A DNA stretch of 64,000 bases. It comes from Sphingomonas sp. RIT328. GTDB taxonomy: Bacteria; Pseudomonadota; Alphaproteobacteria; Sphingomonadales; Sphingomonadaceae. A program made the translations under genes and the position numbers. The notes under the pieces are model-generated. The model was not told the DNA's origin, searched no databases, and worked only from the letters and a program-made list of their open reading frames with translations. Positions 7,492-40,589 of this stretch are shown here, piece after piece (positions within the stretch are counted from its first letter, which is position 1; the number at the start of each line of letters is the position of its first letter). The DNA is taken from positions 1-64,000 of the forward strand of contig NZ_JFYV01000007.1 of assembly GCF_000632225.1 (NCBI RefSeq). Reading direction: 5' to 3'.

Positions 7492-10400
7492 TGTTCGACA
7501 AGGTCCTGGTCGCCAACCGCGGCGCGATCGCCTGCCGCATCATCCGCACGCTCAGGACGATGGGGGTCGGCTCGGTCGCGGTGTTCAGCGACGCCGACGC
7601 CGGTTCGGCGCATGTCGCGCAGGCCGACGAGGCGGTCCGCATCGGCCCCGCGCCCGCCGCCGAAAGCTATCTCGACGTCGCCGCGATCCTCGCCGCGGCG
7701 GAGGCGACGGGCGCGCAGGCGATCCACCCCGGCTATGGCTTCCTGTCCGAGAATACCGCCTTCGCCGAGGCCTGCGCGGCACGCGGCATCGTCTTCATCG
7801 GCCCGACCCCCGACAATATCCGCGCCTTCGGGTTGAAGCACACCGCGCGCGCCCTCGCCGCCGCGCAGGGGGTGCCGCTCGCGCCGGGTACCGACCTGCT
7901 CCGCGACGCGGCGGCGGCGATCGCGGCGGCGGCGCGGATCGGCTATCCGGTGATCCTCAAGGCGACCGCCGGCGGCGGCGGCATCGGCATGAAGGTGTGC
8001 GCCGACGAGGCGGACATCCGCGACGGCTTCGCCACCGTCGCCCGGCTCGGCGCGGGCAATTTCGGCGACGGCGGCGTCTTCCTCGAACGCTATGTCGCGC
8101 GCGCGCGCCATATCGAGGTGCAGGTGTTCGGCGACGGCGCAGGCCATGTCGTCGCGCTCGGCGAACGCGACTGTTCGCTCCAGCGCCGCAACCAGAAGGT
8201 GGTCGAGGAAACGCCCGCGCCGCTGCTGCCCGAGGCGACGCGCCGCGCGCTGATCGACGCGGCGGTGCGGCTCACCGCCGCCGCCGACTATCGCTCGGCC
8301 GGCACGGTGGAGTTCCTCTACGACGCGGAGCGCGACGATTTCTTCTTCCTCGAGGTCAACACCCGGCTTCAGGTCGAACATGGCGTCACCGAGCAGGTGA
8401 CGGGCGTCGATCTGGTCGAATGGATGGTGCGTGGGGCGGCGGGCGATACCGGCTTCCTCGACGGCTTCGTGCCCACGCCGCAGGGCGCCTCGATCCAGGT
8501 CCGCCTCTATGCCGAGGACCCGGCGCAGGACTATCGGCCGAGTTCGGGCCGGCTGGTCGGCGTCACCGTTCCGGAGGGGCCGCGCGTCGATCACTGGATC
8601 GCCGCCGGGACGGAGGTGTCCGCCTGGTACGATCCGATGCTCGCCAAGCTGATCGTCACCGCGCCGACCCGCGAGGCGGCGGTCGCCGCGATGCAGGAGG
8701 CGCTCGACCGGACGAGCATCGCCGGGATCGAGACCAACCTCGACTGGCTGCGCACCGTGGTGCGCTCCGACGTGTTCACCTCCGGCGCAGTATCGACGCG
8801 CGCGCTCGCCGACATCGCCTATACGCCGCGCACGATCCGCGTGCTGGCGGGCGGCGCCTCGACCACGGTGCAGGATCATCCGGGCCGGCTCCACCTGTGG
8901 CACGTCGGTGTGCCGCCCTCGGGGCCGATGGATTCGCTCGCCTTCCGCCTCGGCAACCGATTGATCGGCAATGACGAGGCGGCGGCGGGACTGGAGATCA
9001 CCGCCGCGGGACCGACCCTGTTGTTCAACGCCGCGGCGCGCGTGTGCCTGACCGGCGCCGATTTTGGCGCGACGCTCGATGGCGTGCCGATCGGCTGCTA
9101 CGCACCGGTCGACGTCGCCGCCGGGCAGACGCTCAGGATCGGCCGCGTCACCGGCGGCGGCATGCGCGGCTATATCGCGGTCGCCGGCGGGCTCGACGTG
9201 CCGCTGTTCCTCGGCAGCCGCAGTGCCTTCACGCTCGGCGAGTTCGGCGGTCATGCCGGGCGCGCGGTGATGACCGGCGACACGCTGCATCTCGCGCGCA
9301 CCGATCCGCCCGCCGCCCCCGCGGCGGCGCTGGCCGCCGCAGACCGTCCGGCGATCACCCGCGACTGGACGCTGCACGTCCTCTACGGCCCGCACGGCGC
9401 GCCCGACTTCTTCACCGCCGACGATATCGCGATGCTGCGCGCCACCGCGTGGAAGGTGCATTACAATTCCAACCGCACTGGCGTCCGCCTGCTCGGCCCC
9501 AAGCCGCAATGGGCGCGGCAGGACGGCGGCGAGGCGGGGCTGCATCCGTCCAACATCCACGACAATGCCTATGCGATCGGCGCGGTCGATTTCACCGGCG
9601 ACATGCCGATCATCCTCGGCCCCGACGGTCCGTCGCTCGGCGGCTTCGTCTGCCCGTTCGTCGTCGCGCAGGCCGATCTGTGGAAGGTCGGGCAGCTCGC
9701 ACCGGGCGACAGCGTCCGCTTCGTGCCGATCGACACCGCCGCGGCGGTGGCGGCGGAGCAGGCGCAGGACCGGCTGGTCGCCACGCTGGCGGCGCCCCCG
9801 GCCGATCGCGCCGGCGCTCCCGGGGAGGAAACGCTCGGCTCGCCGATCCTGCACGCGATTCCGGCGCAGGGCGTCCGGCCGGCCGTGACCTATCGCCAGC
9901 AGGGCGATCGCAACCTGCTCGTCGAATATGGCCCGATCGTCCTCGACCTCGAACTGCGGCTGCGCGTTCACGCGCTGATGCTCGAGATCGAGGCGATGGC
10001 GCTGCCGGGGATGATCGACGTGACGCCCGGCATCCGCTCGCTCCAGCTCCATTATGACAGCCGCTTGCTGTCGCAGGCGGCGCTGCTCGCCGCGCTAGTC
10101 GCCGCCGAGGAGCGGCTTGGCGGGCTTGACGATTTCGAGATTCCGTCGCGCGTCGTCCATCTGCCGCTGTCGTGGCAGGACCCGGCGATCTATCAGACGA
10201 TCGACAAATATATGGAATCGGTGCGCGACGATGCGCCCTGGTGCCCGGACAACATCGAATTCATCCGCCGCGTCAACGGGCTGGACAGCATTGACGAAGT
10301 CAAGCGGATCGTCTTCGATGCCGACTATCTCGTCATGGGGCTGGGCGACGTCTATCTCGGCGCGCCGGTCGCGACGCCGATCGACCCGCGCCACCGTCTG

Positions 10401-24417: not shown

Positions 24418-26172
24418 GTGACGCACCGACTGCTGCTGGCGACGACCTCCGCTTTGTGCCTCACCGTCGGCGCCGCGGTCGCGCTGCACGGCGCGCCGGC
24501 GCCGGCCGCGGCGGCGCAGGCCGATGCCGGCCGCAGCGGGACTCGCTGCGCCGCGCTCGCCTCCTGGTCGCGCGGCGGGATTCGCATCACTGCGGCCACC
24601 CCGCATGCGGCGGGCCTCGTCGTCGCCATGGGCAATGGTGCCTCGTCCGCGCCGCTGCCGGCGCATTGCGAGGTCAGCGGCATGCTCGCGGAGCATGTCG
24701 GCCGCGACGGGCAGCGGTATGCGATCCGCTTCAAGATGCGGCTGCCCGACCAGTGGAACCGGCGCTTCCTGTTCCAGGGCGGCGGCGGCACCGACGGCAA
24801 TGTCGACGAGGCGCTCGGCGTGATCGCGGAAGGCCAGCCGCTCGGGATCAGCCGCGGCTATGCGGTCATCACGCAGGATGCGGGGCATTCCAACACGTCC
24901 AACGCGGATCCGGCGCGCGGCGGCATGGTCGCCTTCGGCGCCGATCCGCAGGCGCGCGCCGATTACGGCCATGCCTCGCTCAAGGCGAGCTATGACGCCG
25001 CGCGTGCGATCATCGCTTATGTCTATGGCGGCGATCCGGTCCATTCCTATTTCGCCGGCTGTTCGAAGGGCGGGCAGGAGGGCATGGCCTTCGCGCAGCG
25101 CTATCCCGACGCGTTCGACGGGATCCTGGCGGCGGCACCCGGCTTCGCCCTGCCCAAGGCGGCAATCGCCGAGGCGTGGAACACGCAGCAATTCGCCGCG
25201 ATCGTCCGCCGGGCGGGCGAGGCGAGCGTGCCGATCGCGCGCCTTGCCGAGAGCTTCTCGGACGCCGACCTGCGCCTCGCCCGCGATGCGGTGCTGGAAG
25301 CGTGCGACGCGCGCGACGGCCTCAGGGACGGCATCGTCGGGGCCTTCGCGCAATGCCGCACCGATGCGGTGCTCGGCCGGCTGCGCGCGCGCGTCTGCCA
25401 CGGCGACAAAGCGGCCGGCTGCCTCGCGCCGATTCAGATCGACGCGCTGGCGAAAGCCTATGCCGGGCCGCACGACAGCCGGGGCAGGGCGCTCTACGCC
25501 AGCTTCCCGTGGGACGCGGGCCTGTCCGATGACGGCTGGCGGGTGTGGAAGATCGGGCTGGCGGCGCAGGGGCCGCGGCCGATGATCCCGGCGATCAACG
25601 CCGCGATGGGCGCGCCCGCGCTGGCGACGATCTTCTCGACCCCGCCGCGCCTGCTCGCCGCGACGCCGCAGGCAGGGATGGATTACCAGCTTGCCTATAA
25701 CGTCGATCGCGATGCGCCGGCGATCTTCGCCACCGCGCCGGGCTTCGCGCGATCGGCCTGGTCGGATATCGCCGCGCGATCCGAGGATCTGTCCGCCTTC
25801 CGCCGCCATGGCGCCAAGATGATCGTGCCGCACGGCGGCTCCGATCCCGTCTTCTCGATCAACGACACGATCGCCTGGTGGAGCGGCGTCGATCGCGCGA
25901 CGGGCGGCAAGGCGGCGTCGTTCGTCCGCGTCTTCCCGGTGCCGGGCATGGGCCATTGCTCGGGCGGCCCGGCGACCGACCGGTTCGACGCCTTCGATGC
26001 CCTGGTCGCCTGGGTCGAGCGGGGCGTCGCACCCGACCGGATCGTCGCCCGTGCGAACCCCGCCTCGCCCTGGCCGGCGCGCACCCGTCCGCTCTGCCCC
26101 TATCCGAAGATCGCCAGACCGCGGCAGCCCGGCCACGCCTCCGAACGGGCCGAGGACTTCCTCTGCAGCTAG
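24418..26172 (+). CDS. Tannase / feruloyl esterase family hydrolase
   Basis: 584 aa secreted serine esterase. The signal peptide is at residues 1-34. Nucleophile Ser216 lies in GCSKGGQEG, the acid Asp in HGGSDPVFS and the His in GMGHCSGG. Cys residues flanking the Ser and His (GCS and HCS) fit the disulfide that bridges the triad in this family. It cleaves ester bonds of gallate or hydroxycinnamate in plant phenolics, probably in the periplasm. GTG 24418 follows GAGGAG. It is preceded by DUF3237 and followed, convergently, by a TonB receptor. Confidence 0.9.
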   Translation: MTHRLLLATTSALCLTVGAAVALHGAPAPAAAAQADAGRSGTRCAALASWSRGGIRITAATPHAAGLVVAMGNGASSAPLPAHCEVSGMLAEHVGRDGQRYAIRFKMRLPDQWNRRFLFQGGGGTDGNVDEALGVIAEGQPLGISRGYAVITQDAGHSNTSNADPARGGMVAFGADPQARADYGHASLKASYDAARAIIAYVYGGDPVHSYFAGCSKGGQEGMAFAQRYPDAFDGILAAAPGFALPKAAIAEAWNTQQFAAIVRRAGEASVPIARLAESFSDADLRLARDAVLEACDARDGLRDGIVGAFAQCRTDAVLGRLRARVCHGDKAAGCLAPIQIDALAKAYAGPHDSRGRALYASFPWDAGLSDDGWRVWKIGLAAQGPRPMIPAINAAMGAPALATIFSTPPRLLAATPQAGMDYQLAYNVDRDAPAIFATAPGFARSAWSDIAARSEDLSAFRRHGAKMIVPHGGSDPVFSINDTIAWWSGVDRATGGKAASFVRVFPVPGMGHCSGGPATDRFDAFDALVAWVERGVAPDRIVARANPASPWPARTRPLCPYPKIARPRQPGHASERAEDFLCS

Positions 26173-26221: not shown

Positions 26222-28477
<2,256 letters not shown>

Positions 28478-28507: not shown

Positions 28508-28523
28508 GCGCAATCGGTTGCGC
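28508..28523. promoter_or_regulatory. LacI-like operator upstream of TonB receptor
   Basis: GCGCAA-TCGG-TTGCGC is a perfect inverted repeat with core GCAATCGGTTGC, the symmetry typical of LacI/GalR-family operators. It is 31 bp upstream of the receptor ATG at 28477. It shares the core AAnCGnTT with three other sites at 29719, 30922 and 31047. Confidence 0.6.
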
Positions 28524-28569
28524 TGGCGTATCACGGCATCCAAAGCCATGCAATACGGCCTGATTTATG

Positions 28570-29628
28570 TCAGGCCGATGCGGCGAACGCGGCGCGCAGC
28601 GCGCCTTTCCAGGCGGTGGTGAAGGCGATGGCGACGCGGGCCTGGGGCGCGATGCCGTCAAAGCAGTGATAGGCGCCCGGCGTGACGTGCAATTGCGTCG
28701 CCACCCCGGCGTCGATCAGCCGCGCGGCATAAGCGATGTCCTCGCCGACGAAGAGATCGAGCGACCCTACGCCGATGAACGCAGGCGGCAGCCCCCTCAG
28801 ATCGTCGACCCGCGCCGGCACCGCGCCGGTCGGCACCTGGACGCTGCCTGCCGGCCGGCCGAGGAAGCTGGTCCAGCCGAAGCGGTTGGCCGCCGCATTC
28901 CAGCCGATCGTGCCGATGAACGGCGGCACGGCCCGCGTGCTGCCGGTGCGATCGTCGAGCATCGGATAGATCAGCAGCTGATAGCAGAGCGGCACCGTGC
29001 GCCGGTCGCGCGCCGCGATCGCCAGCATCGCCGCCAGCCCGCCGCCGGCGCTCTCGCCCATCACCGCGATCCGCCTGGCATCGACGCCCAGCTCGGCCGC
29101 ATGGGCGTGGAGCCAGACGAGCGCGCTGTGACAGTCGTCGAGCGGCCCGGGAAACGGCGTCTCGGGCGACAGCCGGTAATCGGCTTCGACCACCACGCAA
29201 TCGAGTTCCTCCGCCAGCCGCTGCGACGCGACGATCGTGTCGGCGACCCGGCCGAGGATCATGCCGCCGCCGTGGATATGGAGGATGGCGGGGCGGGGCG
29301 GCGTGCCGGACTTGCGGTTGATGACGATGACGCCGACCGGCGGGGATCCGGCGATGCCGGGCGCGACCCGTCGTTCGACCGCGGCGGCGGGCGGCGGCAG
29401 CGGAGACGGCGCCGGCGGCAACGTCCGGCGGATGGCGCGGACCGCGTCGGGGGTCAGCGGATCGGGCAACGGGCGGGAAAGGATCATCCTCGCGCCCTCG
29501 CGCAATTCGGGATCGACCCGCGCCAGGATCGCTGCGTCGCCTGCCGGCGATTGCGCCGCTGCCAGCGACGGCAGCGTCGCCGCCGCGGTGATCAGGCCGA
29601 AGTGGAAATCCCGCCGTGTCAGGTTCAT
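28570..29628 (-). CDS. Alpha/beta hydrolase, hormone-sensitive-lipase family, exported
   Basis: 352 aa. The N-terminus NLTRRDFHFGLITAAATLPS is Tat-like. The HSL-family oxyanion motif is HIHGGGMILG, the nucleophile motif is GESAGGG, and the acid/His are in GSLDLFVGED and PGAYHCFDG. The enzyme is expected to cleave short acyl or aryl esters. ATG 29628 has GAGGAT upstream and sits right at the Tat-like motif. It lies upstream of the TonB receptor (28477) on the same strand, with a LacI-like operator in front of each. Confidence 0.88.
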   Translation of the reverse strand: MNLTRRDFHFGLITAAATLPSLAAAQSPAGDAAILARVDPELREGARMILSRPLPDPLTPDAVRAIRRTLPPAPSPLPPPAAAVERRVAPGIAGSPPVGVIVINRKSGTPPRPAILHIHGGGMILGRVADTIVASQRLAEELDCVVVEADYRLSPETPFPGPLDDCHSALVWLHAHAAELGVDARRIAVMGESAGGGLAAMLAIAARDRRTVPLCYQLLIYPMLDDRTGSTRAVPPFIGTIGWNAAANRFGWTSFLGRPAGSVQVPTGAVPARVDDLRGLPPAFIGVGSLDLFVGEDIAYAARLIDAGVATQLHVTPGAYHCFDGIAPQARVAIAFTTAWKGALRAAFAASA

Positions 29629-29718
29629 CGCTGCATCCTCCCGATATCCGGCGCTGTCGCGCTCTCGTCGGCAGGGTGATCGAAAACGCCGTCTCCGACA
29701 AGAGCTTAGCGGCAAAAC

Positions 29719-29734
29719 TCGCAAACGATTGCGA
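29719..29734. promoter_or_regulatory. LacI-like operator upstream of esterase gene
   Basis: TCGCAA-ACGA-TTGCGA is a perfect inverted repeat with core GCAAACGATTGC. It is 90 bp upstream of the minus-strand esterase start and immediately after the 3' end (29742) of the upstream hydrolase. It belongs with the other AAnCGnTT dyads. Confidence 0.6.
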
Positions 29735-29741
29735 GCAGCCG

Positions 29742-30725
29742 TCAGTGACGGTGCATCCAGGCATCGAACAGCGCCAGCCACTCACCGTTCGGCGCGCCGG
29801 GCGTTCCCAGGCCGAAACCGTGGCCGCCGCGCTCGAACAGATGGATCTCCGCCGGAACCTTCGCCGCGCGCAGCGCCGCCAGCATCATCAGGCTGTTCTC
29901 GGGCGGCACCGCCGTGTCGTCGAGCGCATGGACGAGGAAGGTCGGCGGCGTCGTCGCATCGACGTGGCGGTCGGGCGAGCGCTGCGCGACCAGCGCCTCG
30001 TCGGGGGCGGGGCCGAGCAGGTGTTCCACGCTCGCCGCATTGGTGTAGCGCGCGGCAAGGGTGATGACCGGGTAGATCAGCCCCGCCGCCGCGGGACGCG
30101 GATCGATCGTGTCGATCGCATCGCGCGGCGCATAGACGCGCTCGCCGAATCCCGTCGCCAGCGAGGCGGCGAGGTGGCCGCCCGCCGAATAGCCGACCAC
30201 CGCGACCGCCTCCGCCGCGAAGCGATACCGTCCCGCCGCTGCGCGGATCACGCGCATCGCGCGCTGCGCATCCTGCAGCGGTACGGTCGCGCGGTGGCTC
30301 CACCCTTCGCCGGGCAGGCGGTGGATGAGCACGAAGACGGTATAGCCGCGCGCCGCCAGCGCCTGCGCGGTGTCGCCGCCTTCATGCGTGCCGACGATGA
30401 ACGTATAGGCGCCGCCGGGGATCAGCAGCACCGCGCGGCCGTTGCCCGACTGCGGCCGGAAGACGTGCAGCGTCGGGCGCGCGACGTTGCGGAAGAAACC
30501 CGGCGGGCTGTCCGGCGGCAGCGGCTGCGCGGCGAAGCCGGTCTCCGGCGGCGTGCCCGGCCACAGCGGCAGCGTCTCCGCCGCCCGCCACGCCGCCGAC
30601 AGCGGCCCGAGCGGCCCCGGCGCAGGTTCGGGCGCACGCTGCGCCGTCGCGGCCTGCGGCATCGCCAGCCCCGCGCCGGTCGCGGCGAGCAGGGTGCGGC
30701 GGTCGATCGTCGGTGGGAAGCGCAT
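29742..30725 (-). CDS. Alpha/beta hydrolase (acetylxylan-esterase/BD-FAE-like), exported
   Basis: 327 aa. The N-terminal DRRTLLAATGAGLAMPQAA resembles a Tat signal. Oxyanion region LLIPGGAYTFIV, nucleophile motif GYSAGGHLA, Asp in HALDDTAVP and His in GGHGFGLG make a complete triad. The family removes acetyl, feruloyl or similar acyl groups from carbohydrates. The start codon at 30725 shares one base with the stop of a 57-codon frame upstream, so translation may be coupled. It is divergent from the GH1 glycosidase gene, and the shared control region carries two LacI-like dyads. Confidence 0.87.
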   Translation of the reverse strand: MRFPPTIDRRTLLAATGAGLAMPQAATAQRAPEPAPGPLGPLSAAWRAAETLPLWPGTPPETGFAAQPLPPDSPPGFFRNVARPTLHVFRPQSGNGRAVLLIPGGAYTFIVGTHEGGDTAQALAARGYTVFVLIHRLPGEGWSHRATVPLQDAQRAMRVIRAAAGRYRFAAEAVAVVGYSAGGHLAASLATGFGERVYAPRDAIDTIDPRPAAAGLIYPVITLAARYTNAASVEHLLGPAPDEALVAQRSPDRHVDATTPPTFLVHALDDTAVPPENSLMMLAALRAAKVPAEIHLFERGGHGFGLGTPGAPNGEWLALFDAWMHRH

Positions 30726-30898
30726 CAGCCGCGCCCCCCGAAGGCCGTGGCGGGCCCGCACGGCCACGCGCCGGTGCGGTCGCGCGCGACCCGCGCCTGC
30801 GACGCCCCGGCATCGAAGGCGTCGGGCGTGACATGGGCATGGGCATGGGTCGGCCCGCCCGCGGTGATCCGCCGATGCCCTTGGCGTCGTGTCAGCAT
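30725..30898 (-). CDS. Possible 57-residue coupled small protein
   Basis: A short frame MLTRRQGHRRITAGG... ending ...CGPATAFGGRG, 57 aa, with His-Ala repeats (THAHAHV). Its ATG is preceded by a strong GGAGGGGA ribosome site. Its stop overlaps the next gene's ATG (TGATG), which looks like translational coupling. The protein has no recognisable domain or signal and could be a leader or a gene remnant. Confidence 0.4.
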   Translation of the reverse strand: MLTRRQGHRRITAGGPTHAHAHVTPDAFDAGASQARVARDRTGAWPCGPATAFGGRG

Positions 30899-30921
30899 CG
30901 TCTCCCCTCCGCCGCAGCCGC

Positions 30922-30935
30922 TGCAATCGATTGTT
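30922..30935. promoter_or_regulatory. LacI-like operator in divergent region (left)
   Basis: TGCAATCGATTGTT contains the 10-bp palindrome CAATCGATTG and matches TGnAAnCGnTTnCA except at the last two positions. It lies 24 bp upstream of the small coupled frame and in the shared promoter region with the GH1 gene. Confidence 0.5.
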
Positions 30936-31046
30936 CGGAACTTATCCCGCTTCCGGCAGCATCGCAACAGACGCGGCGCGACCGCATCGCGGCAGCGCCT
31001 CGACGCCGCGCTCCTGACCGGACCACGCACCGCATCGATGGTTCAC

Positions 31047-31073
31047 CAGCGATTCAAACGATTATCATCGCTG
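31047..31073. promoter_or_regulatory. LacI-like operator in divergent region (right)
   Basis: CAGCGAT and ATCGCTG form perfect 7-bp arms around a 13-bp centre that contains AAACGATT (31056-31063), the same core as the other three sites. It lies 106 bp upstream of the GH1 start. Confidence 0.5.
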
Positions 31074-31178: not shown

Positions 31179-32510
31179 ATGACGACCATAGACCGGCGGG
31201 CCATGATCGCGAATGCGGCGATGATACCGCTGGCCGGCGCGGCGGCGACGGTCGGCCTGACCCCCGCGCCGGCGGCCGCCGCGCCGCGCGTCTTCCCGCC
31301 CTCCTTCCTGTGGGGCGTGGCGACCTCCGGCCACCAGACCGAGGGCAATAATACCAACAGCGACGTCTGGGCGGTCGAGCATCTCACCCCGTCCAACTTC
31401 AAGGAGCCGTCGGGCGATGCCTGCGACAGCTTCGAGCGCTGGCCGGTCGACCTCGACATCGTCCGCGGTCTGCACCTCGACAGCTATCGCTTCTCGCTGG
31501 AATGGGCGCGGATCGAGCCGGAGCCCGGCCAGGTCTCGATCGCGATGCTCGATCACTACAAAGCGATGATCGACGGCTGCCGGTCGCGCGGGATCAAGCC
31601 GATCGTGACGTTCAGCCACTTCAGCTGCCCGCGCTGGTTCGCCCTCGCCGGCGGCTGGACCAACCCGGAGGCGCCGCAGCTGTTCGCGCGCTTCTGCGAC
31701 CGCGCGGCGCGGCATCTGGCCGGTGCCATCCACGCCGCAGCGACGCTGAACGAACCCAATCTGATGCGCCTGCTGCGCTACAAATTGCCCGCCCGCGCGC
31801 TGGCCGGCAGCGACGCGGTGCGCGCGGCGGCGGCGCGGGCCTATGGATCGGACCGCTTCGTCGCGATGATGATCGAAAGCGCCGCACAGACCGAGGCGGC
31901 GCTGCCGATCATGATCGCCGCGCATCGCGCCGGGCGGGCGGCGATCAAGGCGGTGCGCTCCGACCTGCCGGTCGGCGTGACGCTCGCCATCGAGGACGAT
32001 CAGGCGGTCGGCGCACCCGAGGCGCGCGATCGCAAGCGCCGCCTCTGCTATGCCGACTGGCTCGAGGCGGCGCGCGGCGACGATTTCGTCGGCGTGCAGA
32101 ATTACGAGCGGTCGCGCATCGGCGCGGAGGGCCGGCTGCCGCCCCCCGCAGGGGCGATGCTCAATGCGTCCGGCGCGGAAATCTATCCACCCTCGCTCGC
32201 CGGTGCGGTGCACTATGCCTGGGACGTGGCGAAGGTGCCGGTGCTCGTCTCCGAACATGGCGTCAACACGCAGGACGACCGGCAACGCGCCGCGCTGATC
32301 CCGGCGGCGCTGGCGCACCTGCACGACACGATGGCGCAGGGCGTGCCGGTGCTGGGCTATTGCCATTGGTCGCTGCTCGACAATTTCGAATGGATCTTCG
32401 GTTACGGCCCCCGCTACGGGCTGGCGAGCGTCGACCGGACGACGTTCCGGCGCACGCTCAAGCCCAGTGCGCATGTTCTCGCCGCGATCGCCCGGCGTCG
32501 CGCGGTCTGA
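31179..32510 (+). CDS. Exported glycoside hydrolase family 1 (beta-glucosidase-like)
   Basis: 443 aa. A Tat/Sec-like signal (DRRAMIANAAMIPLAGAA, ends near APAAAA) precedes a TIM-barrel GH1 domain: FPPSFLWGVATSGHQTEG at the start, SYRFSLEWARIEPEPG, and acid/base Glu192 in TLNEPN. The nucleophile strand reads SEHG, with Glu359, in place of the usual TENG. The substrate is likely a beta-glucoside of a plant phenolic, inferred from neighbours. GH1 enzymes are often cytoplasmic, so export is notable. ATG 31179 has AGGAGAGA upstream; the longer open frame before it is not coding. Confidence 0.9.
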   Translation: MTTIDRRAMIANAAMIPLAGAAATVGLTPAPAAAAPRVFPPSFLWGVATSGHQTEGNNTNSDVWAVEHLTPSNFKEPSGDACDSFERWPVDLDIVRGLHLDSYRFSLEWARIEPEPGQVSIAMLDHYKAMIDGCRSRGIKPIVTFSHFSCPRWFALAGGWTNPEAPQLFARFCDRAARHLAGAIHAAATLNEPNLMRLLRYKLPARALAGSDAVRAAAARAYGSDRFVAMMIESAAQTEAALPIMIAAHRAGRAAIKAVRSDLPVGVTLAIEDDQAVGAPEARDRKRRLCYADWLEAARGDDFVGVQNYERSRIGAEGRLPPPAGAMLNASGAEIYPPSLAGAVHYAWDVAKVPVLVSEHGVNTQDDRQRAALIPAALAHLHDTMAQGVPVLGYCHWSLLDNFEWIFGYGPRYGLASVDRTTFRRTLKPSAHVLAAIARRRAV

Positions 32511-32612
32511 ACACCCGCGCATATGCCAGGCGATGGTAAATCCTGGCTCCCTGCGCCATTCCGGTAGCAGGAGAGGGCGTCGGCGGCGGCACGAGGCCCG
32601 GCGGAGAAGCGC

Positions 32613-33539
32613 ATGCGGCTGGACAAGTTCGACCTCAATCTGCTCGTCGCGTTCGAGGCGCTGATGGCGGAGCGCAGCGTGACGCGCGCGGCGCAACGGC
32701 TCAATCTGACCCAGTCGGCGACCAGCGCCTCGCTCAAGCGACTGCGTGAGGCGTTCCAGGACGAATTGCTCGTCCTCCACGGCAAGACGATGATCCCGAC
32801 CCCGCATGCCCTGTCGCTCGCGCCCGAGATCGCCAGCGCGATCGTCCTGCTCAAGAATTTGATCTCGTCCGCGACCGGCTTCGATCCCGCCGTCTCCGAA
32901 CGGCGGTTCCGCATCGTCGCGTCGGATTACACCACGACGGTGTTCATTCAGCCGCTGCTCGCCCTGTTGCGGCGCGAGGCGCCGCACGTCCGGCTCGACC
33001 TGCTGTCGCCCCGCGAGGACACGTCCGATCGATTGGCCAAGGGCGAATATGATCTGTCGATCGTGCCGATCGAATTCGCCGACCTGCGCCACCCGACCGA
33101 GGAATTGTGGCGCGAGCGGCACGTCGTCGTCGGCTGGCGCGACAATCCGATCTTCGCGCAGCCGATCGGCGTCGACGCTTATGCCGCCGCCGGTCACGTC
33201 GTCGTCCAGATCGACGGCCGCAACACCTTCATCGAAAACGCGCTGTCGCAGCGTGGCCTGCTGCGCAAGGTGGAGGTGGCGGTGCCGTCCTTCCTGCAGG
33301 TGCCCTGGCTGTTGCCGGATACGCTGCGGCTGTCGCTGATGCACGAACGGCTGGCGATGCTGATGGCGGAGCGGCTCGACCTGCGCATCGCGCCGTTGCC
33401 GTTCGATATTCCGCCGATGATCCAGGTGCTGCAATATCATTCGACCCGGCATCTGGACCAGGGCCTGCGCTGGCTGCGGACGCGCTGCCACGCCGTCGCC
33501 AGATTCGCGCCGCCGCCGCCGGATCACAAATCGGAGTGA
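32613..33539 (+). CDS. LysR family regulator (NodD-like)
   Basis: 308 aa. The start MRLDKFDLNLLVAFEALMAE and the HTH (SVTRAAQRLNLTQSATSASL) are typical of the NodD/aromatic-responsive LysR branch. The effector domain spans about 90-300. GGAG precedes ATG 32613. It lies 96 bp upstream of, and codirectional with, the TonB/monooxygenase/dioxygenase cluster at 33636-41566, so it is the natural candidate regulator of that cluster. The inducer is unknown, probably a phenolic. Confidence 0.92.
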   Translation: MRLDKFDLNLLVAFEALMAERSVTRAAQRLNLTQSATSASLKRLREAFQDELLVLHGKTMIPTPHALSLAPEIASAIVLLKNLISSATGFDPAVSERRFRIVASDYTTTVFIQPLLALLRREAPHVRLDLLSPREDTSDRLAKGEYDLSIVPIEFADLRHPTEELWRERHVVVGWRDNPIFAQPIGVDAYAAAGHVVVQIDGRNTFIENALSQRGLLRKVEVAVPSFLQVPWLLPDTLRLSLMHERLAMLMAERLDLRIAPLPFDIPPMIQVLQYHSTRHLDQGLRWLRTRCHAVARFAPPPPDHKSE

Positions 33540-33540
33540 T

Positions 33541-33568
33541 GGAAAACGAGCTAAATTAACAATTTTCC
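33541..33568. promoter_or_regulatory. AT-rich dyad between LysR gene and aromatic cluster
   Basis: This is the most AT-rich patch of the region. GGAAAA (33541-33546) pairs with TTTTCC (33563-33568). A nested dyad AAATT-AAC-AATTT lies at 33553-33565. Its position, 70-95 bp upstream of the TonB receptor start and directly after the LysR stop, suits a LysR binding and promoter region. Confidence 0.4.
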
Positions 33569-33635
33569 CGAATGCCGCCGGTTCCATATCACCCTGTCAA
33601 CAGACGGCGACAACGCCGGAACATTGGGAGGATGT

Positions 33636-36053
33636 ATGAAGCGCACTGCGGTTCTGCTCGCGTCGGCGGCTGCCCTGGTCGGATCGCCGGCCTTTGCCCA
33701 GGCGGGCCAGATCGTTCCGACCGAAACGCCCGGCGCGACCCGGCCCGATCAGCCGGCCGAGGCGGATCAGGGCGTCGGCGCCAATGCGCAGGCGCAGGCC
33801 GCGGCGCAGGACAGCGGTCAGCTTGAGGACATCGTCGTCACGGCGCAGAAGCGCGAACAGCGGCTGCGCGACGTGCCGGTCGCCGTCACCGCGCTCACCG
33901 CCGACACGCTGATCGCCCGCGGCATCAACGACGTCGCCGCCGTCACCCGCGCGGTCCCGAGTCTCACCGTCACGCAGACGGATGTCGCGACATCGAACAG
34001 CATCAACATCCGCGGCATCGGCACCAATGCGTTCAGCATCGGCGTCGAACCGGCGGTGGCGGTGGTGCTCGACGATGTCGCGCTGCTGCAACAGGCGCAG
34101 GCCTTCTCCGGCCTGTCCGACATCGCCCGGATCGAGGTGCTGCGCGGGCCGCAGGGCACGTTGTTCGGCAAGGGCGCGTCGGCGGGCGTGGTCAACATCG
34201 CGTCGCAGGCGCCGTCGTCGAAACTCGAGGCGGGCGTCGCGACGCAACTCACGACCGACCAGGAATTCCGGCTCGACGGATCGATCTCCGGTCCGGTGAC
34301 CGACTGGCTCGGCGTGCGCGCCAATTTCTTCGTCGTCGACCGCGACGGCTATATCAACAATCGCGCCGGCGGCGACCGGCTCGGCGGCGAGAAGAGCAAT
34401 GGCGTGCGCATCCGCGTCGACATCGATCCGACCTCGCGGCTCAACATCGCGCTGATCGCCAGCACCTCGCGCAACGTGACCGAGCCGGTCCGCACCTTCC
34501 GCTATATCCAGTCCGCCAATACGCGCATCTTCGCGGTGCAGCCCTATTTCGCCGGCAATCTGCTCGCGCCCGGACTGGTCGGGATCGTGCCGGGGACCGG
34601 CAATTACGACACGCGGGTCAACGTCCGGCCGAAGAGCGACAGCGAGCAGTCGCTCTACATCGGCCGCGCGACGCTCGACCTCGGTTTCGCCAATCTGATC
34701 GCGGTGACGGGGTATCAGACCTGGGATCTGGCGACGCGCGAGGACACCGATCTGACCGACCTCGCCTCGATCGCCGGCAATGCCGGCGGCGTCAGCCAGA
34801 TCTCGGAGTATAACGCGCGGCAATTCTCGCAGGAGCTGCGCCTCGTCTCGAGCGGCGGCGGGCCGTTCAGCTATGTCGGCGGCCTCTATTACGCCAACGG
34901 CCAGACCGATCGCAGCTTCCAGCGCTTCGCTTTCGGGCCGGGCGCGCAGCAATGGACGGGCCGGGCCGGGACCGAGAGCTATGCCGCCTTCGGCCAGGCG
35001 ACGCTCAACATCACCGGCACCACCCATGTCGACGGCGGCATCCGCTTCAACCGCGAAACCATCAACGTCCGCTTCACCGATCTGCGGTCGAGCGCGACCG
35101 CGGCGACCTGCGGCACCGGCTGCGCCGGCGACAGCAGCGACGACCAGATCACCTACAAGGCGGCGCTGCGCCAGGACCTCAACCGGTCGACGATGGTCTA
35201 TGCCTCCTATGCCACGGGCTACAAGGGGCAGGGCTATGACGTGTCGAGCGGCTTCACGCCGACCCGCGCGTCGACGCCGATCCGCCCCGAACATTCCAAG
35301 GCCTATGAGGTCGGGCTGAAGGGCCAGTTCTTCGACAATCACGTCCAGCTCAACCTCGCCGGTTTCTGGACCGACTATAAGGATTTCCAGACGCAGACCG
35401 CGGCCAATGTCGGCGGCGTGCTGACCTTCCTGCTCGCCAACGCGCCGCGCCTGCGCAGCCGCGGCATCGAGGGCGACGTGTCGATCCGCCCGTTCCGCGC
35501 GCTGCGCCTCGACGGCGGAGCCTCCTACACCGACGCGCGCATCCAGGAATTCTCGACCGCCACCTGCTATCCGGGCGAACCGTTCGTCGTCGGCACGGTG
35601 GCGACCACGCCGGGCGTCTGCGTCAGCGCGACGACCTCGACCGGCGTGCAGAACCTCGCCGGTGCGCGGCTCGCCAATGCGCCGAAGTTCAAATACACCG
35701 TCTCGGGGACGTATGACGTCACCCTGCCCAGCCTGCCGTTCGATGGCTTCGTCCAGGCCGACTGGTCGTATCAGAGCTCCGTCAATTTCGACATCGGCGG
35801 CAATCCGCTGACCTTCCAGCGTGGTTACGGCGTGCTCAACGGCAGTATCGGGCTGAAGGCCGATGACGGGCGCGGCTATCAGATCAGTCTCTTCGCCAAC
35901 AATCTTCTCGACAAACATTATGCGACGCAGATCACCGCCGCATCGGGAAGCAACACCGACGCCGGCGTCACCAACACCGGGCTGGCGACGGCACAATTCC
36001 TCAGCCGCGACTCGCGCCGTTACTTCGGCATCCGGGCGCGGGTGCGGTATTGA
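33636..36053 (+). CDS. TonB-dependent receptor, first gene of aromatic cluster
   Basis: 805 aa. The signal peptide ends SPAFAQ near residue 22. A Gln/Ala-rich linker follows, then the plug (DIVVTAQKREQRLRDVPVAV, VTRAVPSLTV, IEVLRGPQGTLFGKGASAG) and the barrel with C-terminal FGIRARVRY. The pattern is that of the large sphingomonad receptor family used for aromatic and plant-derived substrates. ATG 33636 follows GGGAGGA. Downstream catabolic genes start 41 bp later, so import and degradation appear to be cotranscribed. Confidence 0.93.
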   Translation: MKRTAVLLASAAALVGSPAFAQAGQIVPTETPGATRPDQPAEADQGVGANAQAQAAAQDSGQLEDIVVTAQKREQRLRDVPVAVTALTADTLIARGINDVAAVTRAVPSLTVTQTDVATSNSINIRGIGTNAFSIGVEPAVAVVLDDVALLQQAQAFSGLSDIARIEVLRGPQGTLFGKGASAGVVNIASQAPSSKLEAGVATQLTTDQEFRLDGSISGPVTDWLGVRANFFVVDRDGYINNRAGGDRLGGEKSNGVRIRVDIDPTSRLNIALIASTSRNVTEPVRTFRYIQSANTRIFAVQPYFAGNLLAPGLVGIVPGTGNYDTRVNVRPKSDSEQSLYIGRATLDLGFANLIAVTGYQTWDLATREDTDLTDLASIAGNAGGVSQISEYNARQFSQELRLVSSGGGPFSYVGGLYYANGQTDRSFQRFAFGPGAQQWTGRAGTESYAAFGQATLNITGTTHVDGGIRFNRETINVRFTDLRSSATAATCGTGCAGDSSDDQITYKAALRQDLNRSTMVYASYATGYKGQGYDVSSGFTPTRASTPIRPEHSKAYEVGLKGQFFDNHVQLNLAGFWTDYKDFQTQTAANVGGVLTFLLANAPRLRSRGIEGDVSIRPFRALRLDGGASYTDARIQEFSTATCYPGEPFVVGTVATTPGVCVSATTSTGVQNLAGARLANAPKFKYTVSGTYDVTLPSLPFDGFVQADWSYQSSVNFDIGGNPLTFQRGYGVLNGSIGLKADDGRGYQISLFANNLLDKHYATQITAASGSNTDAGVTNTGLATAQFLSRDSRRYFGIRARVRY

Positions 36054-36094
36054 TCGGTGGTTCGCCGGGTGAAATCTCAGGGGGAGGCGAAACG

Positions 36095-37210
36095 ATGGAT
36101 GCGATGAAGATCCTCGTGATCGGCGGCGGGATCGGCGGACTGACCGCGGCGATCGCCTTGCGCCGGCGCGGCGACACGGTCGAGGTGGTCGAGCGCGATC
36201 CGGGCTGGTCGGTCTATGGCGTCGGCATCATCCAGCAGGCCAATGTCGTCCGCGCGATGGCGCAGCTCGACCTGCTCGACGATTATCTGTCGGCGGGCGT
36301 CGGCTTCGACGCGGTCGAGGTGTTCGTGCCGAGCGGGCAGAAGGTCGCGCGCATCCCGTCGCCGCGGCTGGTCGAGGACCGGCCGGCGAACGTCGGGATC
36401 GGCCGACCGGCGCTGCACCGCGTGCTGGGCGACCGCGCGCTGGCGAGCGGCGCGACCGTGCGGCTGGGGATCATGCCGACCGATCTCGCCGATGACGGCG
36501 ACGGCGTGACGGTGACCTTCTCCGACGGCAGCCGCGGCCGCTACGATCTCGTCATCGGCGCGGACGGCGCCTATTCGCAGACGCGGGGCAGGCTGTTCCC
36601 CGATGCGCCGGTACCCGAATTCACCGGCCAGGCGGTGTGGCGGTACAATCTGCCGCGGCTCGCCGACATGGACGCCTTGCAGGTCTATAACGGGCCGAAC
36701 GGCGTCGGGCTGGTGCCGATCTCCGCCACGCTGATGTACCTGTTCGTGACCACCAGCGAGCCGGGCAATCCCTTCTACCCCACCGAGGGGCTGGCGGCGG
36801 CGATGCGCGCCAAGCTCGCCGCCTCCGCGCCGGCGATCCGCGCGCTCGCCGAGGGGATCACCGACGATGCCGGCGTCGTCTACCGCCCGCTCGAAGCGCT
36901 GCTGGTCGAGGGGCCATGGCACGAGGGGCGGGTCGTGCTGCTCGGCGACGCGGTGCATGCGACCACGCCGCATCTCGGGCAGGGCGCGGGGATGGCGATC
37001 GAGGATGCGATCGTGCTCGCCGACGAACTCGGCCGGTATGACACGCTGGCGGCGGCGCTGACCGCCTATCGCGACCGGCGCTTCGATCGCTGCGCCTATA
37101 TCGTGCGCTCGAGCCTCGCCATCTGCCACGGCCAGATCGGGCGCGCCCCCGCGGTCGACAATGCCGCCGCGACCAAGGCCATGTTCGACATGGTCGCCGC
37201 CCCGATCTGA
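36095..37210 (+). CDS. FAD-dependent aromatic monooxygenase
   Basis: 371 aa class-A flavoprotein hydroxylase. The Rossmann motif is GGGIGGLTAAIALRRRG at about residue 10. An internal DLVIGADGAYS corresponds to the DG motif, and GDAVHATTPHLGQGAGMAIE is the FAD ribityl motif. The family (salicylate hydroxylase / UbiH-like) ortho-hydroxylates phenolic rings with NAD(P)H and O2, producing the catechol that an extradiol dioxygenase can cleave. ATG 36095 follows GGGGGAGG. It lies between the TonB receptor and a ring-cleavage dioxygenase. Confidence 0.9.
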   Translation: MDAMKILVIGGGIGGLTAAIALRRRGDTVEVVERDPGWSVYGVGIIQQANVVRAMAQLDLLDDYLSAGVGFDAVEVFVPSGQKVARIPSPRLVEDRPANVGIGRPALHRVLGDRALASGATVRLGIMPTDLADDGDGVTVTFSDGSRGRYDLVIGADGAYSQTRGRLFPDAPVPEFTGQAVWRYNLPRLADMDALQVYNGPNGVGLVPISATLMYLFVTTSEPGNPFYPTEGLAAAMRAKLAASAPAIRALAEGITDDAGVVYRPLEALLVEGPWHEGRVVLLGDAVHATTPHLGQGAGMAIEDAIVLADELGRYDTLAAALTAYRDRRFDRCAYIVRSSLAICHGQIGRAPAVDNAAATKAMFDMVAAPI

Positions 37211-37248
37211 CCCCCCCATCGACATGATTGCGCACAGGAGCTGATGTG

Positions 37249-38151
37249 ATGAGCCGAGTGACCGAAATCCGCTACGTTGGCTATGCGGTGGCCGACCTCG
37301 ACGCCGAACGTGCCTTCTATCGCGACGACTGGAAACTGATCGACGCGGGCGAGAAGGACGGGATGGTGCATTTCGCCGCCGAGGGCCATGACGAGAATTA
37401 TGTCGTCCGGTTGCGGGCCGACGACACCAACAGCATCGACGTCATCGCGCTCGCCGCCGACGGCGATGCCGATGTCGAGGCGCTGCACGACCGGGTCGTC
37501 GCCGCCGGCTGCCGGGTGATCTTCGCCCCGCGCGCGCTCGATACGCTCGGCGGCGGCTATGGCTTCCGCTTCTTCTCGCCCGACGGGCTGCCGTTCGAAG
37601 TGTCCGCCGGCGTCGACCGGCGCACGCCGCGCCAGCTCAACCGCTGGGAAGGCATCCCGCAGAAGATCAGCCATATCGTCCTGCATTCGCCGGATCATCG
37701 GGCGATGGTGCGCTTCTTCGTCGAGGTGCTGGGCTTCCGGGTCAGCGACTGGCTCGGCGATTTCATGTGCTTCCTGCGCTGCAACAGCGCGCATCACCGG
37801 CTCGCGCTGCTGCCGGGGCCGGCCTGCCTCAACCACGTCGCCTATGACATGCTGACGGTGGACGACATGATGGCGGGCATCCGCCGGCTGAAGCGTGCCG
37901 GCACCGACATCCTGTGGGGGCCGGGGCGGCATACCGCGGGCAACAACACGTTCAGCTATTTCACCACGCCGAACGGCTTCGCGGTCGAATATAGTTCGGA
38001 GCTGGAGCACGTCGATTTCGACGCGCATGTCGATCAGGTCCATGCCCCCGGACCGACGACGATGGACCAATGGGGGATCGGCGTCGGCGGCCCGCAGACG
38101 ATGCCGCATCCCAAGCCCGATCCGCGCCTGTTCACCGCGGCGGGGGTCTGA
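37249..38151 (+). CDS. VOC-superfamily extradiol ring-cleavage dioxygenase
   Basis: 300 aa, two tandem VOC domains as in type I extradiol dioxygenases (BphC-like). The iron triad is visible in the second half: His142 in ISHIVLH, His196 in LNHVAYD and Glu247 in AVEYSSE. Spacing resembles the His/His/Glu set of known enzymes. It should open a catechol ring next to the hydroxyls using Fe(II) and O2. Active-site residues beyond the metal ligands cannot be checked here. ATG 37249 follows AGGAG; GTG/ATG codons upstream are less likely. The next gene follows by 4 bp. Confidence 0.88.
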   Translation: MSRVTEIRYVGYAVADLDAERAFYRDDWKLIDAGEKDGMVHFAAEGHDENYVVRLRADDTNSIDVIALAADGDADVEALHDRVVAAGCRVIFAPRALDTLGGGYGFRFFSPDGLPFEVSAGVDRRTPRQLNRWEGIPQKISHIVLHSPDHRAMVRFFVEVLGFRVSDWLGDFMCFLRCNSAHHRLALLPGPACLNHVAYDMLTVDDMMAGIRRLKRAGTDILWGPGRHTAGNNTFSYFTTPNGFAVEYSSELEHVDFDAHVDQVHAPGPTTMDQWGIGVGGPQTMPHPKPDPRLFTAAGV

Positions 38152-38155
38152 TCCG

Positions 38156-39313
38156 ATGGCGTTGTTCGAATATTTCCCGAACTACATCTGGAATCTGTCG
38201 GTCGCGATCGCGCTGGAGAGCGGCGGGCGGATCGGTGAGATCGTCGATATGTGCCAGCCGATCCGCGATGCGGCGGCGGGCGGCGGCGATGCCGGCACGC
38301 CGCAGTTCATGGCGCGCTGGGTCGAGATGGGCGACCGGCTGATCGGCCTCGCCGACGAGGATGTCGCGGCGGGCCACGGCTATTCCGCCGCCGCCAAGCT
38401 CGACCGCGCCGCCTTGTACCTGCTCGTCGCGGAGCGGATGCAGGCGCATGGCTCGGCGGGGCGCGAGGCGACCTATGCGCGTGCGCTCCGTGCCTTCGGC
38501 GATGCGACGCGGCTCGGTGGCCTCAGCCGCGAACGGGTCGAGATTCCGCTGGAGCAGGGCCATATGCCCGCGCTCTTCACCCGCGCACCGGGGGCGGGGC
38601 GGAAACCGGTCGTCGTCTATTGCAACGGGCTCGACAGCTGCAAGGAGCTGCTGTTCTGGTCGGGCCTGCCCGAGGCGCTGGCGCGGCGCGGCATCTCGAC
38701 CCTGTGCGTCGACCAGCCGGGCACCGGCGAGGCGCTGCGCCTGCAAGGCCTGCCGGTCGATCCGCACAGCGAGCATTGGGCGTCGCGCGCCGTCGACTGG
38801 CTGGAGGCGCAGGACGCGGTCGATCCGGCGCGGATCGGCATGACCGGCATCTCGCTCGGCGGTCATTTCGCGCCGCGCGCGGTCGCCTTCGAACCGCGGT
38901 TCGCGAGCGGTGCGGTCTGGGGCGCCAACCACAATTGGGCCGAGGTGCAGCAGAAAAGGCTGCGGCGCGAGGGCGAGAACCCCGTCCCGCATTATTGGGC
39001 GCACGTCATGTGGACCTTCGGCGCGGCCGACATGGACGATTTCCTCGCCAAGGCCGAGGCGATGACGCTGGACGGCGTGCTCGACCGCATCCGCGTGCCC
39101 TTCCTCGTCACCCATGGCGAGAAGGATCGCCAGATCGCGCTCGACTACGCGCATCAGACGCGCGCCGGGCTGGTCAACAGTCCCAGGGTCGGCTTCAAGA
39201 TCTTTACCGCCCGCGAAGGCGGCGTCGAACATGTCGGCGCGGACAATATGAGCTACGGGCGGGACTATATCGCCGACTGGTTCACCGACACGCTCGGCGG
39301 CCGCGCCGGATGA
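38156..39313 (+). CDS. Alpha/beta hydrolase, likely C-C bond (ring-fission product) hydrolase
   Basis: 385 aa. An N-terminal helical cap of about 130 residues precedes the hydrolase core. The nucleophile is Ser233 in GISLGGHFAP, with acid in THGEKDRQIA and His in GGVEHVGAD. The length and cap resemble the FrsA/2,6-dihydroxypseudooxynicotine-hydrolase group, some of which cut carbon-carbon bonds. Directly following an extradiol dioxygenase, it is the best candidate to hydrolyse the ring-fission product; ester hydrolysis is the alternative. The stop overlaps the next ATG. Confidence 0.82.
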   Translation: MALFEYFPNYIWNLSVAIALESGGRIGEIVDMCQPIRDAAAGGGDAGTPQFMARWVEMGDRLIGLADEDVAAGHGYSAAAKLDRAALYLLVAERMQAHGSAGREATYARALRAFGDATRLGGLSRERVEIPLEQGHMPALFTRAPGAGRKPVVVYCNGLDSCKELLFWSGLPEALARRGISTLCVDQPGTGEALRLQGLPVDPHSEHWASRAVDWLEAQDAVDPARIGMTGISLGGHFAPRAVAFEPRFASGAVWGANHNWAEVQQKRLRREGENPVPHYWAHVMWTFGAADMDDFLAKAEAMTLDGVLDRIRVPFLVTHGEKDRQIALDYAHQTRAGLVNSPRVGFKIFTAREGGVEHVGADNMSYGRDYIADWFTDTLGGRAG

Positions 39314-39807
39314 ATGCCGTCGCCGCCCCGCGCCCGGTCTTTCCCGATGCCGGCTATCTGTACCGCGAGACCGCGATCAGCGTCGCGATCAATGCGGTGT
39401 TGAGCCTCATCTTCTTCCTGCTGGTCTTCGGCACCCCGGCCAGCGTGCGCGTCGCGGGGGCGGGCGGCTATGGCATGGATTTCGTGCCGCAGAGCCTGAT
39501 GATCGCGCTGATGGCGTCGCTCGTGCCCGGCGCGATCGCGGCGGCGAAGCTGCGCCGCGCCGGGCTGGCGGCGGCGGAAGCGCGCGCGGCGTTGCTGCGT
39601 CGATCGCTGGCGACCGCGCTGCTGGGCGCAGGCGTGGGGGCGGCGATCGGCTGGCTGCTCGCCCTCCTCCTGCCCGTCGCGGCGATCCCGCTTGTGCCGG
39701 CGCTGTTCGCCAGGATCCTCTACGGCGCGCTGCTCGCCGCGATCGTCACTCCCATCGGCCTGCGCCGGGCGCTGCGCCGGCCGTACCGCACCAAGGAACC
39801 GCGATGA
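39310..39807 (+). CDS. Small membrane protein of unknown function
   Basis: 165 aa with about four hydrophobic segments (about 22-45, 60-78, 97-120 and 122-150). No family was recognised. It overlaps the C-C hydrolase upstream (ATGA) and the cyclase downstream (ATGA), so it is firmly inside the aromatic operon. A role in transport or membrane association is conceivable but unsupported. Confidence 0.75.
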   Translation: MNAVAAPRPVFPDAGYLYRETAISVAINAVLSLIFFLLVFGTPASVRVAGAGGYGMDFVPQSLMIALMASLVPGAIAAAKLRRAGLAAAEARAALLRRSLATALLGAGVGAAIGWLLALLLPVAAIPLVPALFARILYGALLAAIVTPIGLRRALRRPYRTKEPR

Positions 39808-40589
39808 CCCGCCGCCTCATCGATCTGTCGATCACGCTCGATCCCGACGTCATCACCGATCCGCCGTTCATGCGGCCGTCGATCACCTATCAGACCCATG
39901 CCGAGACGGTCGCCGAGGTGCAGGGCTTCTTTCCCGGCCTGACGGCGGAGCAGATCCCCGGCGGCCTCGGCTTCGCCGCGTCGGAGACGCTGACGCTGAC
40001 CACGCACAACGGCACGCATCTCGACGCGCCGTGGCATTATCACCCGACGATGGACGGCGGCGCGCGCGCGATCACCATCGACGAGGTGCCGCTCGACTGG
40101 TGCCTGCGCCCCGGCGTCAGGCTCGACTTCCGCCATCTGCCCGACGGACATGTCGTCACCGCGGCGGAGATGGCGGCGGAATTCGCGCGGATCGGCTATG
40201 ACCTGCAGCCGTTCGACATCGTCCTGGTCAACACCGCCGCCGGCGCGGCGCTCGGCGGGCCGGACTTCCTCGGCAAGGGCTGCGGCATCGGCTATGAGGC
40301 GACGATGTGGCTGACCAGCCGCGGCGTCCGCGTCACCGGCACCGATGCGTGGAGCTGGGACGCGCCCTTCGCGCTGACCGCCCGCAAGGTCGCCGAGACG
40401 GGCGACACCTCGCTGATCTGGGAGGGGCACAAGGCCGGCCGCGACATCGGCTATTGCCATATGGAGAAGCTCACCAACCTCGACCAGCTGCCCGACTTCG
40501 GCTTCACCGTGTCCTGCTTCCCGGCCAAGGTGAAGCGCGGTTCGGCGGGCTGGACGCGCGCGGTCGCGATTTTCGAGGAGGCGGCATGA
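39804..40589 (+). CDS. Cyclase family protein (kynurenine-formamidase-like)
   Basis: 261 aa, metal-dependent cyclase/formamidase family. The signature HNGTHLDAPWH (His68 to His78, including His72 and Asp74) holds the metal ligands, and later TDAWSWD and EGHKAGRDIGYCHMEKL fit the family. Such enzymes hydrolyse amide or lactone bonds or close rings. In aromatic clusters they are found beside ring-cleavage enzymes. The precise step is not clear here. It overlaps the membrane protein and the FAA hydrolase by 4 bp on each side. Confidence 0.88.
   Translation: MTRRLIDLSITLDPDVITDPPFMRPSITYQTHAETVAEVQGFFPGLTAEQIPGGLGFAASETLTLTTHNGTHLDAPWHYHPTMDGGARAITIDEVPLDWCLRPGVRLDFRHLPDGHVVTAAEMAAEFARIGYDLQPFDIVLVNTAAGAALGGPDFLGKGCGIGYEATMWLTSRGVRVTGTDAWSWDAPFALTARKVAETGDTSLIWEGHKAGRDIGYCHMEKLTNLDQLPDFGFTVSCFPAKVKRGSAGWTRAVAIFEEAA

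Follow-up and report, generated by a model that had tools for sequence, protein, structure and literature searches.

A putative LacI-type sucrose regulon with TonB receptors and exported esterases in Sphingomonas sp. RIT328

Which genes of a small esterase locus in Sphingomonas sp. RIT328 answer to a common LacI-family repressor, and on what substrate would they act? The locus lies in bases 1-64000 of contig C7 (this whole stretch of 64 kb is called the window) of a 4.34 Mb genome in 56 contigs, and comprises genes for a TonB-dependent receptor, two exported esterases and an exported GH1 glycosidase (Table 1). An earlier note had placed all four under one LacI-family repressor encoded outside the window, acting at four sites with the core AAnCGnTT, and had proposed a plant glycoside as substrate. 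On balance, we favour a sucrose-type LacI regulon which would have been enlarged by TonB receptors and exported esterases, with members across contigs C7, C14 and C50.

Predicted operators in front of the receptor and esterase genes

The four cores are present, at 28512, 29723, 30925 and 31056 (the positions given previously were those of their flanks), and Pfam confirms the gene identities as TonB receptor, Abhydrolase_3, BD-FAE and GH1. The bare core carries no significance of its own and was discarded as evidence, its frequency in the window being near random: it occurs 8 times in 64 kb (the others at 8955, 28880, 45349 and 52764), compared with means of 5.8 and 3.4 for Markov models of order 1 and 3 (40 simulations each). 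The extended motif, in contrast, stands out. The dyad GCAAnCGnTTGC is found in the window only at 28510 and 29721, with 0.08-0.13 occurrences expected, and GCAATCGATTGC with at most one mismatch has 11 places genome-wide and none for the reversed control; three of the 11 (28510, 29721 and 30923) fall within 2.5 kb. Seven of the eight inner dyad positions are paired at 28512 and at 29723, five at 30925 and three at 31056.

A scoring matrix (consensus ATTTGCAATCGATTGCAAAT) was built from 56 training sites, all from relatives and none from the genome under study. Training sites had the core AANCGNTT, showed 5 or more of 7 dyad pairs and lay near homologs of genes from C7, C14, C50 and the relatives' locus L225; 101 cores in 12 loci yielded 63 dyad sites, 56 of which were used, contributed by 11 loci of 9 genomes. 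This choice selects in the relatives for what is found there, and two of the training sites score below 6. In the window, the three best matches are 29723, 30925 and 28512, in this order, followed by 8955 (10.0) and 31056, while a Markov-3 null modelled on the window itself gave 4 matches of at least 15 and 23 of at least 9 in 20 x 64 kb. The first three sites are even palindromes with a central CG near the promoters of their target genes, which the fourth is not. They are thus very probably real operators of a LacI repressor, with the consensus TTGCAATCGATTGCAA, whereas the core at 31056 in front of the GH1 gene scores at noise level and looks like a chance match.

Table 1. Predicted operators and neighbouring genes in the window (positions in bases of contig C7).
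Feature	Position	Strand	Remarks
Operator 1	28508..28523		GCGCAATCGGTTGCGC; core at 28512; 5' of TonB-receptor gene, centre 38 bp before ATG; matrix 16.8
Operator 2	29718..29735		CTCGCAAACGATTGCGAG; core at 29723; 5' of HSL-type esterase gene; matrix 20.1, best of the window
Operator 3	30923..30934		GCAATCGATTGT; core at 30925; 203 bp before BD-FAE/PaeX-like esterase gene; matrix 18.9
Fourth core	31056..31063		AAACGATT; judged a chance match; matrix 9.6, noise level
TonB-dependent receptor	26222..28477	-	Pfam
Exported HSL-type esterase	28570..29628	-	Pfam Abhydrolase_3; HGGG and GESAG motifs; RR-type signal
Exported BD-FAE / pectin-acetylesterase-PaeX-like alpha/beta hydrolase	29742..30725	-	Pfam
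Exported GH1 glycosidase	31179..32510	+	Pfam; judged a non-member of the regulon

The sites are conserved along with the genes they precede. The 150 relatives sampled in the genus include at least 5 with an ortholog of the receptor (75-86% identity), as counted among the matches listed. Four of these (G018, G042, G122 and G081) carry on the same contig a homolog of the LacI encoded on C14, described below, and in G061 this homolog is on another contig than the receptor ortholog, a contig which carries operators too. The palindrome of the receptor promoter is aligned and kept in all five orthologous promoters read, in surrounding DNA that has diverged, and in the window, L225, L228 and L229 the operator centre precedes the ATG by 37-39 bp. 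HSL orthologs adjoin the receptor in L227 (67%) and L228 (72%), with the BD-FAE gene a few kb on, and the HSL operator of the window aligns with operators of both loci. Homologs of the BD-FAE esterase (53-76% identity) are found within the LacI clusters of relatives; 7 of 10 have a matrix match of at least 15 at their start, and the remaining three (L227, L228 and L238) come after an operator-bearing HSL gene (two rows of 27-28% identity, L257 and L258, are omitted from this count). At the same threshold, 7 of 12 HSL rows have a match, the misses being L225, L230, L231, L233 and L228, where an overcalled open reading frame (ORF) covered the sites at 9962 and 9995. Five of eight receptor rows have one, with the second fragment of L229 and the distant homologs of L231 (45%) and L236 (35%) as misses. 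Gene calling relied on a simple script that set starts by the longest ORF; it overcalled starts and missed an HSL gene in L228, so the gene-to-operator distances of the matrix scan are rough.

Both esterases have N-termini that are RR-type by eye (MNLTRRDFHFG for HSL, DRRTLLAATG for BD-FAE), and the top NCBIfam model for the BD-FAE gene product is PaeX (2e-76, below the cut-off of the model). As judged from these comparisons, the set of TonB receptor, HSL esterase and BD-FAE/PaeX-like esterase, without GH1, holds as the putative regulon of the window. A tannase/feruloyl-esterase gene at 24418-26172 has no matrix match of at least 7 nearby; its homologs, at 36-37% identity, adjoin operators in L229 and L233.

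A probable LacI regulator on contig C14 and its company of sucrose genes

As the earlier note had supposed, the regulator is not in the window: ten LacI genes of the genome pass the Pfam cut-off and none of them is on C7, which disposes of a regulator on this contig. The likely regulator gene is at C14:84959-85963, at the very end of its contig, next to a paralogous TonB receptor 42% identical to that of the window. The site between the two genes is gacAATCGATTgcg, which at 21.6 is of the same type as the window operators, and an MFS gene on C14 has the site GCAACCGATTGC (16.4). The 4.2 kb contig C50 contains three sites (19.0, 16.7 and 11.7), beside a GH68 gene and between a divergent alpha/beta hydrolase gene and a ceramidase-like gene. 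The C14 LacI is 52% identical to the LacI of the L225 cluster and 44% to that of L228, while the next best of the ten own LacIs reaches 38-39%. It passes the PF00356 cut-off (its L225 homolog has PF00356 and PF13377) and gives full-length matches to 17 LacI-type NCBIfam models, all below cut-off. A tree was built with nine of the ten own LacIs, the one on C45 being left out and compared by BLAST instead (38%). Taken together, the C14 protein is probably the regulator of the three operators, as far as sequence can tell.

The LacI gene at C14:65399 was rejected as a candidate, another palindrome, TGTAACCGGTTACA, lying beside it. This second LacI on C14 adjoins a GH3-like gene and has that palindrome as its own, and similar sites, AACCGGTT, are found before a downstream gene (L041:7302, 11585 and 11605 for the palindrome and these sites together). 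Since different LacIs have the AAnCGnTT core in common, the flanks alone tell their operators apart. Contigs C46 and C13 both end in the same first 17 residues of a LacI domain, scored equally, which looks like an assembly break at a repeated gene.

In the loci of relatives, the orthologous receptors and esterases are found with LacI homologs, a GH68 sucrase, a ROK kinase, an MFS permease and additional esterases, with operators of the GCAATCGATTGC type in front, and in the clusters of G018, G042, G122, G081, G061, G052, G056, G025 and G109 an operator precedes many of the genes. The fullest cluster, L225, comprises a COesterase, a GDSL esterase, LacI, a sodium symporter, an HSL esterase, a receptor, an MFS permease, a BD-FAE esterase, GH68, a ROK kinase, a ceramidase-like hydrolase and the ortholog of the window receptor. 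The exact sequence GCAATCGATTGC occurs in at least 60 of 151 genomes (2 of 151 for the reversed control). Of 75 matches listed, 36 have a homolog of the C14 LacI (E below 1e-79) no more than 3 kb away and 30 no more than 200 bp away, when the chance for each such place is about 0.13%. A GH68 gene is present in 56 of the 151 genomes, and all 55 relatives which have one also carry a C14-type LacI (89 of 150 relatives carry it); 43 of the 56 GH68 genes are within 10 kb of it. The genomes being related, the p-value of a Fisher test on this co-occurrence should not be read as a true probability.

GH68 enzymes act on sucrose. The GH68 protein of C50 is over the Pfam cut-off and matches levansucrases of solved structure (1e-58 to PDB 7bj4). 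It keeps WDAWP, EWSGS, RDP and ELERP, of which we take WDAWP, RDP and ELERP to be the catalytic motifs, and no signal peptide is evident by eye. The nearest model for the ROK kinase of L225 is the ScrK fructokinase, below cut-off. As LacI, GH68 and the operator co-occur, the group of the C14 LacI is linked to a sucrose enzyme, and the esterases have the look of an addition; sucrose is thus likely to be the core of the regulon. In front of homologs of the C14 receptor (the second receptor), two operators are found 89-92 bp apart in L225, L229, L232, L233, L234, L235 and L238, a spacing which would suit a repression loop, and the C14 receptor itself has one good site (21.6) with a weak one 56 bp away (8.5).

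Five of the 11 one-mismatch GCAATCGATTGC places fall outside C7, C14 and C50, on C5, C8, C13, C20 and C41. The further matrix matches include C13 (14.6), C8 (13.3) and C41 (11.0), and the places on these three contigs lie inside coding regions or on their borders according to our own gene calls. On C5, GCAATCGGTTGC at position 32389 (L044:7390) precedes the ORF of another TonB receptor by about 55 bp, with a matrix score of only 10.6; this could be an extra member.

The GH1 gene and its neighbours

The idea of a shared LacI regulon stands for import and deacylation under one outside regulator, but not for the exported GH1 enzyme. Beyond the score of its core, the best 80 of 347 GH1 relatives were read with their flanks (L124 having only 146 bp upstream), and not one has a matrix match of at least 12 from -500 to +60; no GH1 gene was seen in the 12 LacI-esterase loci read. 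Between the genes of the 80 GH1 loci, CAANCGNTTG has 8 places and the scrambled-centre control CAANGCNTTG has 13, that is, no enrichment. The GH1 protein is nearest, among named genomes, to those of Sphingomonas glacialis (75%) and S. hylomeconis (72%). In the Novosphingobium-type loci L057-L059, GH1 stands together with LysR, TonB-receptor and cyclase genes (also VOC and FAD-oxygenase genes in L058 and/or L059), and these neighbours are homologous to the window at 32.6-40.6 kb. L055 and L056, which hold the nearest GH1 relatives, have a receptor beside GH1 and no LysR in the stretch read. GH1 was rejected as a member on account of its noise-level site, the lack of a site in its relatives and its LysR/receptor/cyclase company. 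Since the intergenic stretch of the divergent BD-FAE and GH1 genes contains operator 3, this site may nevertheless have some effect on GH1.

Positions 31179-40589 of the window form a run of GH1, LysR, TonB receptor, FAD-binding oxygenase, glyoxalase/VOC protein and putative cyclase genes, homologs of which are together in L057-L059. This run is a candidate aromatic-glycoside cluster under LysR, apart from the LacI regulon.

Substrate, alternatives and relation to known systems

The plant glycoside proposed in the earlier note gives way to another substrate: the sugar-cleaving gene that carries an operator is the GH68 sucrase on C50, which makes an esterified sucrose the better fit. Acylsucroses are sticky, defensive sucrose esters of plant surfaces and are the first candidates; phenylpropanoid sucrose esters are possible too, because of the tannase/feruloyl-esterase homologs by operators in L229 and L233. 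We give acylated sucrose as the actual substrate an even chance. The comparison supports the operators, the conserved gene set and the linkage of LacI, GH68 and operator, and from it we infer the repression, inducer, cellular places and substrate in the following scheme. Without inducer, the LacI repressor would sit near the promoters. Acylsucroses or similar esters of sucrose would enter via the TonB receptors and lose their acyl groups in the periplasm to the exported esterases, after which sucrose would cross via the MFS permease, be split by the cytoplasmic GH68 enzyme, and have its fructose phosphorylated by the ROK kinase. Sucrose or a product of it would release the repressor. More tentatively, and with somewhat less than an even chance in our estimate, this would be a dedicated LacI-controlled system for feeding on acylsucroses, with TonB import, a periplasmic battery of esterases and intracellular GH68, which would have arisen when a sucrose regulon of sphingomonads gained receptors and esterases.

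Several observations weigh against the proposed regulon and its substrate. The genome has no copy of the exact GCAATCGATTGC, each of its own sites deviating by at least one base. In the tree, the C14 LacI joins seven LacIs of esterase clusters weakly (support 84/61), and those of L227 and L228, the loci most similar to the window, branch elsewhere. The C14 contig ends at the start of lacI, so autoregulation is not visible. Matches of at least 15 precede MFS homologs in 3 of 6 cases, GDSL homologs in 3 of 5 and lacI itself in 3 of 18 loci. The ROK gene on C42 (47% identical to that of L225) has no operator by the matrix, and L228 and L238 as read are without GH68. Two high matches are unplaced, one on C20 at the 3' end of a gene (21.4) and one at C14:13730 (L047:7731) directly 5' of a different, distant lacI (20.6), which may reflect cross-binding or coincidence. 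To our knowledge, no sucrose-ester activity is known from the families of these enzymes.

The most serious alternative is an ordinary sucrose/fructan regulon whose esterases serve another acetylated plant glycan that co-occurs with sucrose, with no single esterified-sucrose substrate. The LacI group occurs with GH68, MFS and TonB-receptor genes mostly without esterases in L240, L241 and L244, and the names BD-FAE and PaeX suggest acetyl groups of xylan or pectin, which would agree with such a division. Several exported esterases nevertheless have the operator in common with GH68 in L225, L229 and L232-L235, and no polysaccharide-degrading glycosidase was seen among the matched regulon genes, so that we consider this version rather unlikely. 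Much less probable is a plant-glycoside regulon that includes GH1, with 31056 as a weak secondary operator or with GH1 run from operator 3. The fourth core and operator 3 do share the intergenic stretch between the divergent genes, and a chance match of such a score in so short a stretch would be uncommon; the relatives of GH1, as described above, have neither the site nor a place in the LacI clusters read.

Another LacI could also be the regulator, for instance that at C14:13793, the gene behind the high-scoring C14:13730 site, whose recognition-helix stretch SAATVS is by eye that of the cluster LacIs. At only 28% identity to these (52% and 44% for the C14:84959 protein), on a distant branch, and with no receptor or esterase of the regulon set seen alongside, it is an improbable candidate. 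That all four sites are chance matches can be argued from the near-random frequency of the bare core, but is contradicted by the matrix ranking, the conserved positions, the reversed-pattern controls and the proximity to LacI genes, and is hardly credible. We therefore retain the sucrose-type LacI regulon with added receptors and esterases. If its substrate is right, it gives genetic access to the ways in which bacteria use plant sucrose esters or disarm them; even with another ester substrate, the gain is a motif, a regulator and a list of members from which GH1 has been taken out.

In tomato, where type IV trichomes secrete acylsugars, Sphingomonadaceae are described as the most prominent trichome-specific bacterial feature (PMC8067393, in the part available to us). 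Among the literature matches listed, none concerned bacterial acylsucrose catabolism, and nothing nearer than the systems compared here was found on sucrose regulators or GH68 in Sphingomonas. A survey of LacI regulons distinguishes at least 11 orthologous groups for sucrose, and by description the present regulator would resemble ScrR, CscR and SuxR in controlling sucrose genes; the sucrose regulons are presented there, in the part of the source seen, with transporters, phosphorylases, hydrolases and fructokinases, and no esterases or GH68 are named (PMC4052901). Closer at hand are the GH68/MFS/TonB-receptor loci L240, L241 and L244, which have the same LacI group (53-56% identity to the C14 LacI) together with palindromes of the AATCG type at the promoters of their receptor genes, and which unlike the regulon of the window lack the majority of the esterases. 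The sux locus of Xanthomonas campestris, as far as the source was accessible, combines the LacI/GalR repressor SuxR with the TonB receptor SuxA, the amylosucrase SuxB and the inner-membrane transporter SuxC (PMC1790865). The likeness is one of gene set, a LacI-type regulator presiding over a TonB receptor, an inner-membrane permease and a sucrose-splitting enzyme, and the operators of RIT328 indeed precede two receptors and an MFS gene, transport itself being predicted. No amylosucrase of the SuxB type was seen in the L225 cluster, the whole genome not having been searched for one. Compared with the sux locus as described in that source, GH68 here takes the place of amylosucrase, several exported esterases are added, and the members are spread over three contigs; what is new relative to sux-like loci is probably, judging from the predicted members, a GH68-type sucrose regulon widened with exported esterases.

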